From Halanaerobium saccharolyticum subsp. saccharolyticum DSM 6643 (GTDB taxonomy: Bacteria > Bacillota > Halanaerobiia > Halanaerobiales > Halanaerobiaceae), in assembly GCF_000350165.1 (NCBI RefSeq), contig NZ_CAUI01000005.1:248001-312000 (forward strand): a DNA stretch of 64,000 bases, in the 5' to 3' direction. The notes below the pieces were generated by a model. It worked only from the letters and a program-made list of their open reading frames with translations. It made no database searches and was not told where the DNA came from. The translations under genes and the position numbers were made by a program. Within the stretch, counting starts at the first letter, position 1. The number at the start of each line of letters is the position of its first letter. Positions 49,675 through 57,633 of the stretch are shown here, in pieces.

Positions 49675-49712
49675 AAAGGGAGGCGGCTTATAAAAAGTTG
49701 TCTCCCTTTAAA
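49675..49712. terminator. Bidirectional terminator between convergent genes
   Basis: AAAGGGAG (49675-49682) pairs with CTCCCTTT (49702-49709), extended by a G-U and a C-G pair, flanked by A and T runs. It ends both the PHP gene and the Rnf-like operon. Confidence 0.8.
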
Positions 49713-49716
49713 ATCT

Positions 49717-50268
49717 TTAGAGAAAGTTAAAACCAGACATTATAGCGGTTAAAAAAGCTAAAACTAGAAATAAAGTGTATTCTTTTTTAAATATTTTTTT
49801 ATTTTCTTTTAAATCTAATTGTTCTTTTATAGCAGCAACAATAATGAAAATCAAATAAAAGCCTGCTAATAAGGCGGTTATAATTATTAAATCTTGATAA
49901 TTATAAGATACTTTTTCTATTAAATTAAACTGAAGAGCGAGCAGTCCAGCAAGAGCAATGATTTCTCTTTTTAAACCAGAAATCCATTCTCCCTGGAGTA
50001 GACCATAACTTTTTATAATTTTTATTGCAATTAAAGAATTTAAAAAATAAACTGCTGGAAAAACATAATTAATTGAACTTAGATAATAAGAAAAAATCCA
50101 GGCAGAAATGGCAGCAAATCCCATGGCACCAGTAATAACTTTTCCATCTTTAAAAGCAGTCCTTAGTTTTGGTGTTTCTACTACTATGAGCAGAACCGCG
50201 GTAAAAGAAATTAAAACTAAATTATTTTTTAAAAGCTGATCTAAAAAAACAAATATCATTTCACTCAT
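49717..50268 (-). CDS. RnfA-like integral membrane subunit (divergent)
   Basis: A 183-residue protein with six predicted helices, last gene of the Rnf-like cluster. It resembles RnfA in size, helix layout, the N-terminal LLKNNLVLISFTAVLLIVVETPKL segment and the closing FLVLAFLTAIMSGFNFL. The conserved core found in typical RnfA is poorly kept. RnfA and RnfE form an inverted pair that binds a membrane [2Fe-2S] cluster through cysteines in the membrane. I see no cysteine at all in this protein, so the cluster site is probably lost. It overlaps the RnfE-like gene by one base. Confidence 0.65.
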   Translation of the reverse strand: MSEMIFVFLDQLLKNNLVLISFTAVLLIVVETPKLRTAFKDGKVITGAMGFAAISAWIFSYYLSSINYVFPAVYFLNSLIAIKIIKSYGLLQGEWISGLKREIIALAGLLALQFNLIEKVSYNYQDLIIITALLAGFYLIFIIVAAIKEQLDLKENKKIFKKEYTLFLVLAFLTAIMSGFNFL

Positions 50269-50864
50269 TATTTTGCCTCACTTTCAAGATTATCTGCTGT
50301 TTCTTTTACTAGGGTCGCTTTTAGATTTAATTTTTTAGTTAGGATTTCATAAATAAAAGCTGCTATTGCAAGGGTTAAAAAAGCACCAGCTGCATTGTTA
50401 GCTATAGAAAGTGGTGGATTATTAAAAATCTGATAGTTTAGTAAGCTTCCCTGACCTAATAACTCTCTTAAAATTGAAACTGCCAGCATTAGATCCAAAA
50501 ATAAAGTATGGTTAAGTACGAATTGAGTTAGTCTTTTATTTTTTAAATCTGCATAAACTAGAGGAGTCACTCCAATGAGAATGAAATAATAATTAAAGTA
50601 TTGAGATTGAGCTCCCAAAATTTGGGGCAGCAGCACAGAAAGAAAATAAGAAATTCCAAAGCCTAAACCCCACAGGATTATTTGGCCTTCTTTTTGATCA
50701 AAAAAACTTTCGTTTATTAAATAAATGAATTTAACAATTAGAGCTATAAAACTTAAAGATAGAGCAAAAATGAGGGCAAATAAAACTCCATTTGCTGTGC
50801 CAGCAAGCAGTGGTAATAAAGCTAAAAGACTTATTTTATTAACCAGTGTTAGATTATCATTCAT
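50268..50864 (-). CDS. RnfE-like integral membrane subunit (divergent)
   Basis: A 198-residue membrane protein. The best family match is LRELLGQGSLLNYQIFNNPP, equivalent to the IREILGxGTLF motif of RnfE. N-terminal NKISLLALLPLLAGTANGVLFAL corresponds to the first RnfE helices. It also lacks cysteines, unlike standard RnfE. The C-terminal tail is charged. It lies 41 bases after rnfD and overlaps the RnfA-like gene, as expected for an obligate pair. Confidence 0.65.
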   Translation of the reverse strand: MNDNLTLVNKISLLALLPLLAGTANGVLFALIFALSLSFIALIVKFIYLINESFFDQKEGQIILWGLGFGISYFLSVLLPQILGAQSQYFNYYFILIGVTPLVYADLKNKRLTQFVLNHTLFLDLMLAVSILRELLGQGSLLNYQIFNNPPLSIANNAAGAFLTLAIAAFIYEILTKKLNLKATLVKETADNLESEAK

Positions 50865-50905
50865 TTATTAATTCTCCTTTCTTATTATTTGCTATTAGAT
50901 CTTAT

Positions 50906-51910
50906 TTAGCCAATTAACAAAGTGAAATAGCTAAATATAATTATTAAAAATGCTGCAGAGACTGCAGAAGCAATAATTTTATAATTTTTTTTGCGAATTT
51001 GATACTGTCCGAAGTGGAATCCTTCAAACAAATGGTCAAAAAGATAAGCAAGGCCATTCATTGTTAGAATTGCAAAGGTTACACCACCACTATAAATCGA
51101 AAAATAGCGAATTAAAACAGTTAAGACTCCACAACCTGCTCCATAAGCTAATCTAGCCTCTTTAGCACTAGGAGAACTTACCATATCGGTTGCCATGAAA
51201 AAAGCACCTAAAATAACAGCGCCTGCAAAAATACTGAGCAGCGGATTAACACCTAATAGCCAAGAAGTAATTATTACACCTATTATAAATGAACCTGGGA
51301 TTCTCCAGCTAATGTAGCCTTTATAATAAAGAAAAGCTGCACCAATTAGTAATGCTAAAGCTGAAGTTTCTCCTATAGCTCCAGGTATATTCCCAACAAA
51401 TAAATTCCAGAGTCCACTGATACCATTTTGACTTAAATATGTATAAGAAGAGTCTGAAGCTCTCTGAGCCAGGGGAGTTGCACCAGCAACTGCATCAAAA
51501 GGAGCAGGCCATTTTGCAAAATATTCGGCAAAAGAAAGCCTAATTATTGCTCTACCGGCCAGGGCGGGATTAAAAACGTTATTCCCCAGACCACCAAAAA
51601 GTTGTTTTGCAATTATAATTGCAAAAAATGCTCCAACTAAAGGCAGCCAGAATGGAGAATTAGCAGGAATGCTCATCCCTAACAGCATGCCGGTAACAAA
51701 GGCGCTACCATCTCCAGGAAATTTTTTAGTAAAGGGATATTCTAAAATAACTGAAAATATTGCTGTAGAAAAAATTAAATAAAGAGCATAAGTTCCAAAA
51801 AATATTGATGCAGCTGCTGCAGCCGGAATTAAAGCTAAAGCAACATTCCACATTGTCTTTTCTATTGAATCATCTGTTCCGATGTGTGGACCAGAAAGTT
51901 CTAAATTCAT
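50906..51910 (-). CDS. RnfD-like electron transport subunit
   Basis: A 334-residue polytopic subunit of an Rnf-type complex, which couples electron transfer to ion pumping. It keeps the flavinylation site: the threonine in DAVAGATPLAQR corresponds to the SGAT threonine that binds FMN covalently in RnfD. Other family segments are FGGLGNNVFNPALAGRAI, FFMATDMVSSPSAKEARLAYGAGCG and YQIRKKNYK at the end. The N-terminal SGPHIGTDDSIEKTMWNVALALIP is standard. It is 14 bases downstream of the rnfC-like gene. The ApbE flavin transferase needed is not encoded in the window. Confidence 0.85.
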   Translation of the reverse strand: MNLELSGPHIGTDDSIEKTMWNVALALIPAAAAASIFFGTYALYLIFSTAIFSVILEYPFTKKFPGDGSAFVTGMLLGMSIPANSPFWLPLVGAFFAIIIAKQLFGGLGNNVFNPALAGRAIIRLSFAEYFAKWPAPFDAVAGATPLAQRASDSSYTYLSQNGISGLWNLFVGNIPGAIGETSALALLIGAAFLYYKGYISWRIPGSFIIGVIITSWLLGVNPLLSIFAGAVILGAFFMATDMVSSPSAKEARLAYGAGCGVLTVLIRYFSIYSGGVTFAILTMNGLAYLFDHLFEGFHFGQYQIRKKNYKIIASAVSAAFLIIIFSYFTLLIG

Positions 51911-51924
51911 TTACAGCACCTCCA

Positions 51925-53250
51925 TTAATTATTTGCCTGTCTTAAGCGGGCTTTGCCTTCTCGTAACCATCTTAAAAGCGGTCTGCTGGCTGGACAAACG
52001 TAAGCACAGCTTCCACACTCAATACAACTAGCTAAACTTAAAGCCTCGGCTTCTTCTAGATAATCATTATTTATAAAGTCTGTTATTCTATTAGGAGAAA
52101 TATATACCGGACAGGCATCAACACATTTAGCACAGCGAATACAGACTCTACTTTCATACTCTTTATATTCTGCTTGAGATAAAATAATTATTCCAAAACC
52201 TGTTTTAGTGATAGGAATGTCTGTACTTTCAGCTCTAAATCCTGTCATTGTTCCTCCTATTAGTAAAACACTTTCTTGAGATACTATACCATCACAATAA
52301 TCTAAAAGATTTTTGATTGGCGTTCCAAGTGGAACAATTAAATTTTTAGGATTTCTAATACCTCGTCCACTAACTGAAACAACTCTGTCCACTACTGGTT
52401 GATCTTCATCTACAGCTTCAGCTACAGCAACTGCAGTTTGAGCATTATTAACCACAACTCCAACTTCCATCGGTAATCCACCTTCGGGAATTTCACGGTT
52501 TAAACAAGCTTCAATGAGCTTTTTTTCTGCTCCATGTGGATATAAAGAATCAACTATTTCAAAATCTAGCTCAGGCCAGTTTTTAGCTTCAGCTTTTAAA
52601 CTTTTGATTGCATTTTTTTTATTATCTTCACAGGCAATAAAACCATTTTCAGCTCCAACTGCTTTTTTGATTAACTCCAAACCTCTATAAACTTTAGCAG
52701 TTTTTTCCTGCAGTGTCCGATCATCAACAGCCACATATGGTTCAGATTCTGATCCATTAATAATCACTGTATCAATAGGTTTCTCTTTCGGAGGTGATAA
52801 TTTAATGTGAGTTGGGAAACCGGCGCCCCCCATTCCAATAATACCTGAATTTTTTATAATTTCTTTAATTTCTTCAGCCGTTTTATTTTTTTTAGATTTC
52901 AAATTAAAACTAACTCTATTAAATGCAGCTTTTTTGTCTCTCTGGATAATAATTGCTTTAGATTTTCCTCCGCGGGAATCAGAAATATCTTTGATATCAA
53001 TAATTTCGCCTGATAAACTGGCATGGAGGCTGGCAGATACTCCAGGATTTGCTTTAATTATTAGTTGTCCTCTTTTAACATAATCACCTTTTTCAACAAG
53101 GATTTCTCCTGGTTTACCAATATGTTGTTTAACTGGCAGATAAACAATATCAGGTAAAGGTAATTCTTCAATTTTTAAATTAGTATTTAGTTCTTTATTA
53201 TCCGGGAGATTAATACCGCCAATAGAAAATCTTTTAATATTTTTGGACAT
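51925..53250 (-). CDS. RnfC-like electron transport subunit
   Basis: A 441-residue peripheral subunit predicted to exchange electrons with NADH. The N-terminus FSIGGINLPDNKELN and a biotinyl-like domain (VEKGDYVKRGQLI) are followed by the FMN/NADH domain with GMGGAGFPTHIKL, NGSESEPY and GGTMTGFRAES. Two [4Fe-4S] motifs close the protein: CIRCAKCVDACP and CIECGSCAYVCPASRP. It heads the rnf-like genes and lies 54 bases after mnmH on the same strand, so one transcript may cover both. Confidence 0.88.
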   Translation of the reverse strand: MSKNIKRFSIGGINLPDNKELNTNLKIEELPLPDIVYLPVKQHIGKPGEILVEKGDYVKRGQLIIKANPGVSASLHASLSGEIIDIKDISDSRGGKSKAIIIQRDKKAAFNRVSFNLKSKKNKTAEEIKEIIKNSGIIGMGGAGFPTHIKLSPPKEKPIDTVIINGSESEPYVAVDDRTLQEKTAKVYRGLELIKKAVGAENGFIACEDNKKNAIKSLKAEAKNWPELDFEIVDSLYPHGAEKKLIEACLNREIPEGGLPMEVGVVVNNAQTAVAVAEAVDEDQPVVDRVVSVSGRGIRNPKNLIVPLGTPIKNLLDYCDGIVSQESVLLIGGTMTGFRAESTDIPITKTGFGIIILSQAEYKEYESRVCIRCAKCVDACPVYISPNRITDFINNDYLEEAEALSLASCIECGSCAYVCPASRPLLRWLREGKARLRQANN

Positions 53251-53304: not shown

Positions 53305-54372
53305 TTATAAATGATAGAGATTCAAAATTTTTTTAGCAGCATTTTCAATATTGTCCGCATTGATTTCCGCTTTGTAATTATTAATTTTATTCTGTGAATG
53401 TTCATACATTGGATCATAATATTCTTCTAATAATATTCTGGTTAATTCTTTAAATTTACCTTTTTTTGCTAATTCTAAAAGCTTAAAGTAAGATTTTTTT
53501 CCTGCTTTTTTAATAATATATTTTTTTATTGCAGTTAATGACTCTAAAACTCTTTCTATAAATTTTTCCTGATCACTTTCTATATCTTTTATATATTCGA
53601 GATAAATATTGTCTACCCTTTTTTCCATTGAAGCAGTTATTAATAAGTCTCCTCCAGCTTTCATTTCTTTGTTGAAAAAATCTGGAATAACTGAATGACC
53701 AACTCTTCTACTTTCAGCTTCTACAAAAATAATTCCATTTTGCCTATCTTTTTTCTTCAATTCTTCCCAAAGAAGAGAATCAAAATATTTTTGGTTATAA
53801 GGTTGGTCAAGGCCAATACTGCCAAAAGCCGACCCCCTATGATTTGCAATTCCTTCTAAATCAATGATATTTGCTCCCATTTTTTCCATTTCTTTTAAAA
53901 TGTATGTTTTTCCGACACCTGTGTTGCCGTGTAAAACTGAGATTCTACCTTTAAAATCATAATTCTCAAGTTTATCCATTACATAGTGTCGATAGCCCTT
54001 ATAGCCATCTTCTAATCTATAAACTTCAATTCCAGCTAAATCTGAAAATTCGGCCAAACTTTTGCTTCTTAAACCACCTCGAGAACAAAAAATAATTAAA
54101 TTATCATATTTTTTATTAAGCTGATTAATTTTTTTAATTAAATTTGGAATTTTTGGTGAAACCAACTCAACCCCTTTTAATTTTGCTTTTTTTGAGTTTT
54201 GATTTTTATAAATTGTACCAATGATTTTTCTTTCATTATGATCTAAAAGTTCTATATTAACAGCTCCGGGAATAGTTGCTTCATTATATTCTTCTTTAGT
54301 TCTTGCGTCAATATAAATACTATTTTTAATGTTTAAACTATCTTGATAAGTAATTAGTCTTTCTTTTCGCAT
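53305..54372 (-). CDS. mnmH: tRNA 2-selenouridine synthase
   Basis: Replaces sulfur by selenium (via a geranylated intermediate) at the wobble 2-thiouridine of tRNAs for Lys, Glu and Gln. The 355-residue protein has an N-terminal rhodanese domain with the active Cys96 in IIFCSRGGLRS and IDARTKEEYNEATIPGAVNI. A P-loop domain follows with GNTGVGKT at 149-156 and LEGIANHRGSAFG. Presence of mnmH implies that the organism makes selenophosphate. The upstream spacer holds a 15-bp tandem repeat that may be an operator. Confidence 0.9.
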   Translation of the reverse strand: MRKERLITYQDSLNIKNSIYIDARTKEEYNEATIPGAVNIELLDHNERKIIGTIYKNQNSKKAKLKGVELVSPKIPNLIKKINQLNKKYDNLIIFCSRGGLRSKSLAEFSDLAGIEVYRLEDGYKGYRHYVMDKLENYDFKGRISVLHGNTGVGKTYILKEMEKMGANIIDLEGIANHRGSAFGSIGLDQPYNQKYFDSLLWEELKKKDRQNGIIFVEAESRRVGHSVIPDFFNKEMKAGGDLLITASMEKRVDNIYLEYIKDIESDQEKFIERVLESLTAIKKYIIKKAGKKSYFKLLELAKKGKFKELTRILLEEYYDPMYEHSQNKINNYKAEINADNIENAAKKILNLYHL

Positions 54373-54636: not shown

Positions 54637-55479
54637 ATGTATGAAGTAAAAGATAAGAAAGTTGTCTTAGAACACGGGTCGATAAATAAAGGTATTATTG
54701 CTGTGGCTAGTGGTAAAGGTGGAGTCGGTAAATCTACAGTTACTGTCAATCTGGCAACTGCTCTCGCTGAATTAGGATATAAAGTTGGTATAATAGATGC
54801 TGATGTAAGAGGTTTTAGTGTGCCCAGAATTTTGGGAGTCAAAGATAAACCTAAGGCGGTTAGTGAAAATGAAATTATTCCTCCAGAAGTTAAAGGGATA
54901 AAGACTATTTCGATGGGTTCTTTTGTGGGAGAAAATGAACCAGTAATTTGGAGAGCCCCACTGCTTGGAGGAGCTTTAGAGCAATTTTTCAAAGATGTTC
55001 GCTGGGGAGAATTAGATTATATGCTTCTCGATTTACCGCCTGGAACAGGAGATATGCCACTAAATATAATGCAAAAAGTACCACATTCTGAAATTTTAGT
55101 TGTAACTACTCCACAAATTACGGCAACAAAAGTAGCTGGCCGGATTGGAGCCATGGCTGAAAAAATGGATCTGCAAGTTTTAGGTGTAATTGAAAACATG
55201 GCTTATTATCAGTGTACAGAATGCGGAAATAAAGATTATATTTTTGGTGAAAATGGAGGAGAAACATTAGCAGATTTTATGGGAACCGAGCTTTTAGGAC
55301 AGCTGCCTTTAATTTCTGAAGTTCGCCGCCGTAGTGATACTGGTAAACCAATTGTTTTTGATGAACCTGAAGCTGAAATATCTAAGGAATTCATCAAAAT
55401 TGCAAAACGTCTTGCTGAAAGAGAAGGCGGCTTTGACGAAAAAATTGAACCATTAAAATTAAATATGAATGCAAAATAG
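54637..55479 (+). CDS. Mrp/NBP35-family iron-sulfur carrier ATPase
   Basis: A 280-residue P-loop ATPase of the Mrp group, which assembles and hands over [4Fe-4S] clusters. The deviant Walker A is ASGKGGVGKST (about 24-34), followed by GIIDADVRGFSVPRIL, LDLPPGTGD and TTPQITATKVAGR. The cluster-binding CxxC is CTEC near residue 190, in YYQCTECGNKDYIFG. It opens a row of related genes that resembles the ORP cluster of Desulfovibrio and other anaerobes. A 12-bp hairpin follows the gene. Confidence 0.9.
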   Translation: MYEVKDKKVVLEHGSINKGIIAVASGKGGVGKSTVTVNLATALAELGYKVGIIDADVRGFSVPRILGVKDKPKAVSENEIIPPEVKGIKTISMGSFVGENEPVIWRAPLLGGALEQFFKDVRWGELDYMLLDLPPGTGDMPLNIMQKVPHSEILVVTTPQITATKVAGRIGAMAEKMDLQVLGVIENMAYYQCTECGNKDYIFGENGGETLADFMGTELLGQLPLISEVRRRSDTGKPIVFDEPEAEISKEFIKIAKRLAEREGGFDEKIEPLKLNMNAK

Positions 55480-55488
55480 TAAAGTTGA

Positions 55489-55520
55489 TTTATACCGGTT
55501 TTTACAAGAACCGGTATAAA
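55489..55520 (+). other. Intercistronic stem-loop
   Basis: TTTATACCGGTT (55489-55500) and AACCGGTATAAA (55509-55520) form a perfect 12-bp stem with an 8-base loop. No T run follows, so it looks like an mRNA processing or stability element between mrp and the NifX-like gene, not a terminator. Confidence 0.7.
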
Positions 55521-55549
55521 TAGACAATCAAAAAATGGGGGTTAAAAAA

Positions 55550-55909
55550 ATGAAATTAATTATTCCTGCAGTTGGAGCTAGCAACTTTGAGACAGAGATT
55601 CATGAAAACTTTGGTCGAGCAAATTATTTTGCTGTAATAAATTGTGAGAACAATCAAATTAAATTTGTTAACAATACAGCAGCTAATAAAAGTAGTGGTG
55701 CTGGAGTAGGTGCTGCTCAGTTATGTGCCGATCAAAATGCAGATGCAGTTGCTGCCTATCATTTTGGTCCCAAAGCATATGAGGCATTAAAAGCAGCCGG
55801 AATTGAACTTCTAGATTTAAAAGAACAAAAATTAATTAAAGAAGCTTTTAATGATTACCAGGCAGGCAATTTAACTGAGGCTGAAGCTGGCCCTGGAGGA
55901 CATTTTTAA
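55550..55909 (+). CDS. NifX/NifB-C-terminal-like cofactor protein (ORP-like)
   Basis: A 119-residue protein of the dinitrogenase iron-molybdenum cofactor family (NifX, NafY, orange protein). The fold signature is GASNFETEIHENFGRANYFAVIN, then AHFGPKA-like YHFGPKAYEAL. No nif genes are nearby, so it is not for nitrogenase here. The best known relatives in this context are orange proteins, which bind a Mo-Cu-sulfide cluster. ATG 55550 follows GGGGG at the right distance; the frame also opens at 55535. Confidence 0.83.
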   Translation: MKLIIPAVGASNFETEIHENFGRANYFAVINCENNQIKFVNNTAANKSSGAGVGAAQLCADQNADAVAAYHFGPKAYEALKAAGIELLDLKEQKLIKEAFNDYQAGNLTEAEAGPGGHF

Positions 55910-55910
55910 G

Positions 55911-56789
55911 GTGAACCAGGAAATTTCACTTTCAATTTTAAGTGGAAAGGGTGGAACCGGGAAAACTACTTTAGCAGTTAATTTAGCACTTGCCCTGGAT
56001 AATGTCCAGCTGCTTGATGCAGATGTTGAAGAACCGAATGATTATCTTTTCGTATCTCCTGAAATTGGAGAAAAAGAAAAGGAGTCTGTTATGCGGTTAA
56101 TTCCAGAAGTTAATGATGAAAAATGTACAGCCTGCCGAAAATGTGTTAACTTTTGTGAATACAACGCTCTGGCCATGATGCTTGATAAAGTCTTAATCTT
56201 TGAAGAAGTGTGTCACAGCTGTGGTGGTTGTAAAATTGTCTGTCCAGAAAATGCAATTACTGAAAAAGAAAAAGAGTTAGGTAAACTATATCATGATAGT
56301 TTAGATAATCTTGATTTTTGGCAGGGAGAATTAAATCCAGGTGAAGAAAAAGCAGTACCTGTAATTGAAAAATTAAAAACAAAAATTGATCATGATAAAA
56401 AAGTAATTATTGATTCACCGCCTGGAACTACCTGCCCGACTATAGAAGCAATTATTGACACTGATTTTACAATAGTAGTGACTGAGCCTTCTACTTTTGG
56501 CCTGCATGATCTTAAAATGGTAGTTGAAATGTTAAATAATTTAAATCAAGCTTTTGCAGTTATAATTAATAGATCAGAATCAGATGCTGATTATTTAATT
56601 GAAGATTACTGTCAAGAAAATGGAATAAATATTTTATTGAAAATTCCTTTTTCCAGAAAAATTGCAGAACTTTATTCTAATGGAAAGCCCTTTGTTTATG
56701 AGCTTGAAGGATGGGAAGAAAAATTTAAAAACCTATACAGAGATATTATAGAGGAGGCCTTTAACAATGAAAGAAATAACAGTAATTAG
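55911..56789 (+). CDS. MinD/ParA-type ATPase with inserted ferredoxin domain
   Basis: A 292-residue ATPase with Walker A LSGKGGTGKTT (10-20), Walker A' LLDADVEEPN and IIDSPPGTTCP. A two-cluster ferredoxin domain is inserted at residues about 70-115: Cys72, 75, 78, 82 and Cys101, 104, 107, 111. Such proteins accompany orange-protein loci in anaerobes, in pairs. GTG 55911 is the start; GGAGG lies 11 bases upstream, slightly long. It overlaps its sister gene by 23 bases, so the two probably form a complex. Confidence 0.86.
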   Translation: MNQEISLSILSGKGGTGKTTLAVNLALALDNVQLLDADVEEPNDYLFVSPEIGEKEKESVMRLIPEVNDEKCTACRKCVNFCEYNALAMMLDKVLIFEEVCHSCGGCKIVCPENAITEKEKELGKLYHDSLDNLDFWQGELNPGEEKAVPVIEKLKTKIDHDKKVIIDSPPGTTCPTIEAIIDTDFTIVVTEPSTFGLHDLKMVVEMLNNLNQAFAVIINRSESDADYLIEDYCQENGINILLKIPFSRKIAELYSNGKPFVYELEGWEEKFKNLYRDIIEEAFNNERNNSN

Positions 56790-57633
56790 TGGTAAAGGTG
56801 GAACCGGAAAAACAACTTTTACAGCTAACCTGGCCTCTTTATTAGATAATTTAGTATTAGGTGATTGTGATGTTGATGCACCTAATTTACATCTTTTATT
56901 AAATCCAGTTAATAAAAGTAAAGAAACATATAGGGGAGCAAAATTAGCGATCAAAAATCAAAATCGCTGTATTGACTGTGGTAAATGTTATGATTACTGC
57001 CGTTATAAAGCCATAACTGCTGATGATTTTCAGGTTAATAATTTAAAATGTGAGGGTTGTGGAGTTTGTGTAGAAGTTTGCCCAACAAAAGCCCTTAAAC
57101 TAGAATCTATTGAGACAGGAAGCCTTTATCAGGCAGAAAGTAAATTTGGAGATATGATTCATGCGCGTCTGATTCCAGGTGCTGATACCTCTGGTAAATT
57201 AGTAAGTGAGGTCAAGAAAAAGGCTTCAGAAATTGCCAAAAGAAAAAATAAAGATTGGATTTTAATTGACGGATCACCAGGTATTGGTTGTCCAGTTATT
57301 GCTTCTTTAAGTGGTTCAGATATGGCAATTTTAGTTACAGAACCCACACTGTCTGGTTTTTCAGATTTAAAGCGGGTAATTGAAGTTGTAAAACATTTTA
57401 AAATTCCAGCTGGACTTGTAATTAATAAATATGATTTAAATGAAGAAATTAGCGAAAAAATAAAGTCATATTGTCAGAAAGAAGATATTGAACTTTTGAC
57501 TAAGATTCCATATAGTAGAATAATTGTGGAATCATTAAAAAAAGGAGAACTCTTTGTTGATAATGATCAAGACTTAAGAAAAAGAATGCTTAAAGTAAAA
57601 GCAAATTTGACTAAGATAATGGAGGTAGAATAA
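56767..57633 (+). CDS. MinD/ParA-type ATPase with inserted ferredoxin domain (paralogue)
   Basis: The second of the pair, 288 residues. Walker A is ISGKGGTGKTT (7-17), then LGDCDVDAPNLH and LIDGSPGIGCPV. The inserted ferredoxin domain has Cys68, 71, 74, 78 and Cys95, 98, 101, 105. Order and spacing match the preceding gene, so they came from a tandem duplication. They may use ATP to move a metal cluster or to drive low-potential electron transfer to the NifX-like proteins. That role is inferred from the Desulfovibrio ORP complex. Confidence 0.86.
   Translation: MKEITVISGKGGTGKTTFTANLASLLDNLVLGDCDVDAPNLHLLLNPVNKSKETYRGAKLAIKNQNRCIDCGKCYDYCRYKAITADDFQVNNLKCEGCGVCVEVCPTKALKLESIETGSLYQAESKFGDMIHARLIPGADTSGKLVSEVKKKASEIAKRKNKDWILIDGSPGIGCPVIASLSGSDMAILVTEPTLSGFSDLKRVIEVVKHFKIPAGLVINKYDLNEEISEKIKSYCQKEDIELLTKIPYSRIIVESLKKGELFVDNDQDLRKRMLKVKANLTKIMEVE

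Follow-up and report, generated by a model that had tools for sequence, protein, structure and literature searches.

Rnf (RnfABCDGE) is a ferredoxin:NAD+ oxidoreductase and Na+ pump. It is debated how its electron flow is linked to Na+, and the [2Fe-2S] cluster of RnfA and RnfE (the A/E cluster) is held to be the gate. Here we analysed a four-gene rnf-like locus at 49717-53250 of a 64,000-nucleotide stretch of DNA (NZ_CAUI01000005.1, positions 248,001 to 312,000; in the following the window) from the salt-loving anaerobe Halanaerobium saccharolyticum subsp. saccharolyticum DSM 6643. In canonical Rnf the electrons follow a U-shaped path from ferredoxin via RnfB to the A/E cluster, then out to RnfG and back through RnfD and RnfC to NAD+ (PMC12174285, PMC11889175). 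The locus shares with Rnf the domain make-up of RnfC and RnfD, two genes, E' and A', that are homologous to rnfE and rnfA, and the C-D-(G)-E-A order. Unlike Rnf, it has no RnfB, no RnfG and no [2Fe-2S] ligands, the proposed Na+-path residues are replaced, and a full Rnf coexists with it. We propose, with a probability of about 0.55, that the locus specifies a second, Rnf-derived complex, a "half-Rnf", which would take electrons from NADH in the cytoplasm and deliver them, in this direction only, to the extracytoplasmic face without Na+ pumping.

The NQR/RNF-like systems (Meheust et al. 2021, Huang et al. 2024; PMC8238504, PMC11334425) likewise pass electrons one way, from NAD(P)H to an extracytoplasmic flavin via the membrane domain of NqrB/RnfD. 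In them, however, an NqrF-type NAD domain (PF00175) is joined to RnfD/NqrB, the membrane flavinylation site is lost and A and E are absent, whereas the locus uses RnfC as the NADH module and keeps the RnfD threonine and a cluster-free A/E pair. The extracytoplasmic FMN_bind (FMN, flavin mononucleotide) subunit of these systems is not found in the window locus, but is present in relatives with a fused RnfD. Rnf with a multi-flavinylated RnfG (PMC8238504, fig. 6) resembles these relatives in carrying several FMN_bind domains on an Rnf core, and such clusters were proposed to bifurcate electrons. In contrast, RnfB and the A/E cluster are missing here, and the FMN chain is located on RnfD and was lost in the window. 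For Na+-NQR, an origin from a second copy of the rnf operon, in which rnfB disappeared, was proposed (PMC4014512). There the membrane [2Fe-2S] cluster persisted, NqrF was added and RnfC became NqrA, which has no cofactor, while the locus shows the mirror-image reduction: the RnfC motifs are kept, the A/E ligands are lost and there is no NqrF. The locus lacks features that define Rnf and is best called an Rnf-derived variant. A literature search of openly licensed papers yielded no description of an Rnf with cysteine-free A/E, of an Rnf without RnfB or of Rnf in Halanaerobiales. That the standard family models miss the A/E pair of the window may be the reason why the system is undescribed in the searched papers.

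The four genes and the canonical operon

The locus consists of four consecutive open reading frames on the minus strand, in the transcription order C-D-E'-A'. The rnfC-like gene (51925-53250; 441 aa; TIGR01945, E 6.4e-140) has a Complex1_51K domain (NADH/FMN), an SLBB domain and two [4Fe-4S] motifs, CIRCAKCVDACP and CIECGSCAYVCP, in which 8 of 8 cluster cysteines are kept. The rnfD-like gene (50906-51910; 334 aa; TIGR01946, E 3.2e-74) has the NQR2_RnfD_RnfE domain (PF03116 and, by Pfam, no PF00175) and contains the flavinylation motif AGATPL with Thr145 as the predicted site. E' (50268-50864; 198 aa) and A' (49717-50268; 183 aa) do not contain a single cysteine over their entire length. Neither rnfG nor rnfB is among the genes of the locus. 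The initial annotation had described the gene order, the two missing genes, the intact motifs and the cysteine-free A/E-like proteins in the same way. It had left room for the A/E-like proteins being unrelated membrane proteins, which did not hold.

E' had no Pfam match at all, the Pfam and NCBIfam family cut-offs were not reached, and A' scored 18.7 bits against PF02508, under the cut-off of 23.8. The window proteins were aligned with their relatives from the order and the alignments compared with canonical ones by hhalign. E' matched RnfE with an E of 1.8e-11 and A' matched RnfA with an E of 2.3e-12, while the cross-pair of E' and RnfA gave an E of 0.089. In a profile search of the PDB A' hit only RnfA/NqrE (best 8e-13) and E' only RnfE/NqrD (best 7e-11). 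The predicted model of E' had a predicted local distance difference test score (pLDDT) of 62, and its ten best Foldseek matches were all NqrD/RnfE. For A' (pLDDT 71) Foldseek gave an E of about 1 to RnfA, and VIA Z against three RnfA chains was 9.6, 8.5 and 7.8. Weak as they are, the two models agree with the profile comparisons. By these comparisons E' and A' are genuine relatives of RnfE and RnfA; the profile comparisons, the PDB matches and the Foldseek matches of E' rule out unrelated membrane proteins.

The positions reported to handle Na+ in the A. woodii Rnf are E88, T110, T111 and N112 of RnfA and R67 and E115 of RnfE (PMC11889175). Each of the six was conserved in 83 to 84 of 84 canonical loci and none was kept in the family of the window locus. 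The alignment at RnfA T110-C113 is gapped in this family; the A' of the window is nonetheless free of cysteine throughout.

The assembly of the genome (G000) comprises 2.87 Mb in 23 contigs and is listed as 100% complete. About 305 kb from the locus, on the contig that holds it (G000:C5, 604.5-609.6 kb), there is a complete rnfCDGEAB operon, and the A and E proteins of this operon carry their cluster cysteines. Because of this complete canonical Rnf elsewhere, the locus is a second, paralogous system, and the possibility that it is the sole, broken Rnf of the cell is ruled out. Hence the description as a reduced Rnf stood with respect to the parts absent from the locus, but not in the sense of the cell's Rnf having lost parts. 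The only RnfB and the only RnfG/FMN_bind protein of the genome are those of the canonical operon; two further PF04060 matches are hydrogenase-like proteins by sequence. A search of the genome with the FMN part of a relative, run without a positive control, gave no match. An RnfG, RnfB or FMN chain hidden elsewhere was thus rejected. A single ApbE is encoded on another contig.

Joint loss of RnfB and the A/E cysteines

The relation between RnfB and the A/E cluster was surveyed in 105 loci, composed of the RnfD loci of the order and a set from a wider sample of the phylum, with the A/E pairs being scored by profiles built for the analysis. All four ligand cysteines were present together with RnfB in 81 loci and without RnfB in 3. 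The cysteines were lost in 21 loci without RnfB, some of them near contig ends yet with at least about 1.6 kb 3' of A in view, and in no locus with RnfB. Fisher's test gave p 3e-19, which is descriptive only since the loci are related; there are 2 to 3 phylogenetically independent contrasts, none of them opposite in direction.

The cysteine-less loci are of four kinds. One is the family of the window, C-D-E'-A'. The second, C-D(FMN)-E-A, occurs in family f64 (G099, G171, G201) and is sister to the window family with a support of 92. The third, D-G-E-A-C, was found in four Halanaerobiales genomes (L135, L165, L166, L167) and branches apart from the window family in the C+D tree. The fourth is a single C-D-G-E-A locus in G143 with cysteines retained at 2 of 4 ligand columns. 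The C+D tree needs three changes, two of which are forced by its starred branches. A single origin of all cysteine-less loci was rejected by the approximately unbiased test (p 0.0016), with two caveats, namely that branches are long and that the group was named only once the loci had been seen. Loss of the A/E cysteines probably arose more than once.

The three loci with four cysteines and no RnfB comprise a second Halanaerobium cluster, present in two copies, and one long-branch cluster. The former, rnfCDGEA without rnfB (L113:4524-8566 in G010:C32, and L153 in G019:C28), keeps all four A/E cysteines; at L113 no RnfD reading frame exceeds 267 aa, which is short. This type could represent the same reduction at an early stage. 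The latter (L137:2-10191 in G381:C9) is a very long-branch Rnf with four A/E cysteines and adjoining cysteine-rich NuoE/NuoF-like genes, perhaps another electron-entry module.

The flavin chain of RnfD and the proposed electron route

The initial annotation had called for a comparison with related genomes, and the gene set turned out not to be peculiar to this one. Among 38 genomes of the order the scores of the E' profile were two-humped: 13 loci in 12 genomes scored above 200 bits and every canonical RnfE below 53 bits. No E' family locus was found with this profile in 21 other genomes of the class. A search of genome contigs with E' alone gave no match, while one with the A' profile gave seven loci, all in Halanaerobiales. 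Among the carriers are Halanaerobium saccharolyticum MSL 17.2 and WC1, Halanaerobium sp. 5-U2 and metagenome-assembled genomes of Halanaerobiaceae. All complete neighbourhoods show C-D-E'-A' without B, and the [2Fe-2S] cysteines are missing. The locus belongs to a conserved and apparently unnamed Rnf-derived family in Halanaerobiales.

RnfD of this family is a fusion, in which the NQR2 domain is followed by an RnfG-like membrane helix and then by 3-9 FMN_bind domains. Every member whose RnfD could be seen has this architecture, apart from the window and its orthologue in H. saccharolyticum MSL 17.2 (G015:C4). In these two RnfD ends right after a C-terminal helix of about 30 residues, GQYQIRKKNYKIIASAVSAAFLIIIFSYFTLLIG, which corresponds to the RnfG-like anchor in the fused relatives, whereas canonical RnfD stops before the helix. 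Pfam detected no FMN_bind domain in RnfD or anywhere in the locus. Together with the C+D tree, the retained helix and the fused relatives make the RnfD of the window a truncation of a fused ancestor that lost its FMN chain. The absence of G, correctly noted for the locus, is then a secondary loss within the window lineage, whereas the relatives retain a G function fused to RnfD.

The shortened RnfD opens the possibility that the complex borrows the canonical RnfG in trans as a periplasmic flavin carrier, electrons passing from NADH via RnfD to RnfG and on to an outside acceptor or the canonical complex. RnfG is the single FMN_bind protein of the genome, and the RnfD of the window lost its own fused copy, both of which speak for such sharing. 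Yet sharing is not ancestral, as a fused copy and canonical Rnf occur together in G015, G016 and G019, and the retained anchor helix may obstruct the site of the RnfG stalk. We consider such sharing unlikely, although it is the strongest of the alternatives. Loss of a soluble flavin chain would also fit a reductase of quinone or another membrane acceptor, in which RnfD, by analogy to its homologue NqrB, which participates in quinone reduction by Nqr (PMC4014512), would feed a lipid-soluble acceptor and make a periplasmic domain unneeded. The relatives, however, clearly retained an outward flavin route, and we regard this as the least probable explanation.

Finally, electron export might have ended with the FMN chain, leaving a decaying relic or a non-redox remnant of a disappearing complex. 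The ratio of nonsynonymous to synonymous substitutions (dN/dS) between the window and its MSL 17.2 orthologue, determined at a near-saturating dS of about 1, was 0.12 for rnfC, 0.09 for rnfD, 0.26 for E' and 0.16 for A'. The canonical counterparts gave 0.08 for C, 0.07 for D, 0.096 for E and 0.027 for A. The faster evolution of E' and A' and the missing chain would suit a relic. Against it stand four intact reading frames in two species with dN/dS of 0.09-0.26 at such a dS, a conserved locus order and the retention of all cluster cysteines in RnfC and of the flavin threonine in RnfD. The dN/dS values rule out a chance array or pseudogenes. The C-D-E'-A' complex is maintained, with the looser constraint on A' and E' that is expected of a scaffold, and decay appears improbable, more so than a borrowed RnfG.

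We return to the half-Rnf, which we base on the genes present and their homology, on the lost residues, on the joint loss with RnfB, on the anatomy of the truncation and on purifying selection. Because the locus has the RnfC-RnfD limb only, electrons would run from NADH via RnfC and RnfD to the outside. Once the four proteins assemble and are charged with their cofactors, RnfC would oxidise NADH by FMN followed by its two [4Fe-4S] clusters. RnfD would carry the electrons across the membrane by riboflavin and then by covalent FMN on Thr145, where they would exit. The half of the machinery leading from ferredoxin and RnfB to the A/E cluster has been dismantled, presumably together with Na+ pumping, and A' and E' would stay in the membrane as a scaffold for RnfD without redox activity of their own. 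The FMN_bind chain that is fused to RnfD in the relatives would pass the electrons onward there. In the window lineage it was cut just after the anchor helix, so that the acceptor would have to meet the RnfD flavin directly. The route suggested by the initial annotation, with entry from NADH via RnfC, no access to ferredoxin through RnfB and another acceptor, thus appears to be the best reading.

Several points weigh against this proposal. The exit from RnfD is undefined because the window copy has no FMN_bind domain and there is no free FMN_bind protein elsewhere, and RnfD is expected to need RnfG if transfer is to be fast. No operon partner at the locus hints at the acceptor. The AlphaFold models of A' and E' are of low confidence. 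Furthermore, the 21 cysteine-less loci are mutually related, and the survey table overstates their independence.

Gene neighbourhood and biological meaning

The neighbouring gene mnmH (53305-54372, minus strand), noted initially, lies 54 bp upstream of rnfC and in the same direction. It also adjoins the orthologous locus in MSL 17.2 and is probably co-transcribed with rnfC-rnfD-E'-A', without an evident functional link to the rnf-like genes. On the other side a strong hairpin (49675-49709; -21.7 kcal/mol, z -6.3 on the plus strand; -11.2 kcal/mol, z -2.3 on the minus strand) follows A'. It is a plausible and probable bidirectional terminator, as had been suggested, common to A' and a convergent PHP-domain gene. 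The genes at 54637-57633 are divergent from mnmH; by eye they specify an ATPase of the Mrp/ApbC type, a NifX-like protein and a pair of MinD-type ATPases into which ferredoxin domains are inserted.

In four relatives (L030, L031, L032 and L033 in G009, G024, G025 and G030) genes of an Mrp/Mnh Na+/H+ antiporter directly follow C-D-E'-A'; by eye, such genes also follow canonical rnfCDGEAB in two f20 genomes (L121, L136). MobA, TatC, ExbB, ExbD and TonB-like genes were seen by eye 3' of E'-A' in L034-L037 (G026, G027, G029, G023). In the segment L109:6305-13926 (G024:C1:210000-224000), and also at L115 (G030:C18), a 1142-aa protein combines by Pfam an RnfD/NqrB domain with a formate-dehydrogenase-like molybdopterin oxidoreductase. 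At L109 genes similar to NuoE/NuoF, Fe-S genes and a gene for a membrane protein that has three FMN_bind domains come after it. The arrangement is possibly another RnfD-based electron exporter.

Tentatively, and at somewhat less than even odds, we consider half-Rnf exporters to be a recurrently evolved class. In it A/E would lose the [2Fe-2S] ligands and the Na+-path residues, RnfB being lost as well, and stay as a redox-dead scaffold, while RnfC-RnfD would send NADH electrons outward. The window would be an extreme form that shed its flavin wire and relies on RnfD's own flavins alone. The natural loss of the cluster, the Na+-path residues and RnfB, with RnfC, RnfD and the A/E scaffold being kept, amounts to a dissection like that of an experimenter. 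Such complexes make both the C-D half alone and the role of A/E without its cluster testable. The half-Rnf would point to an overlooked route of electron export in fermenting halophiles.

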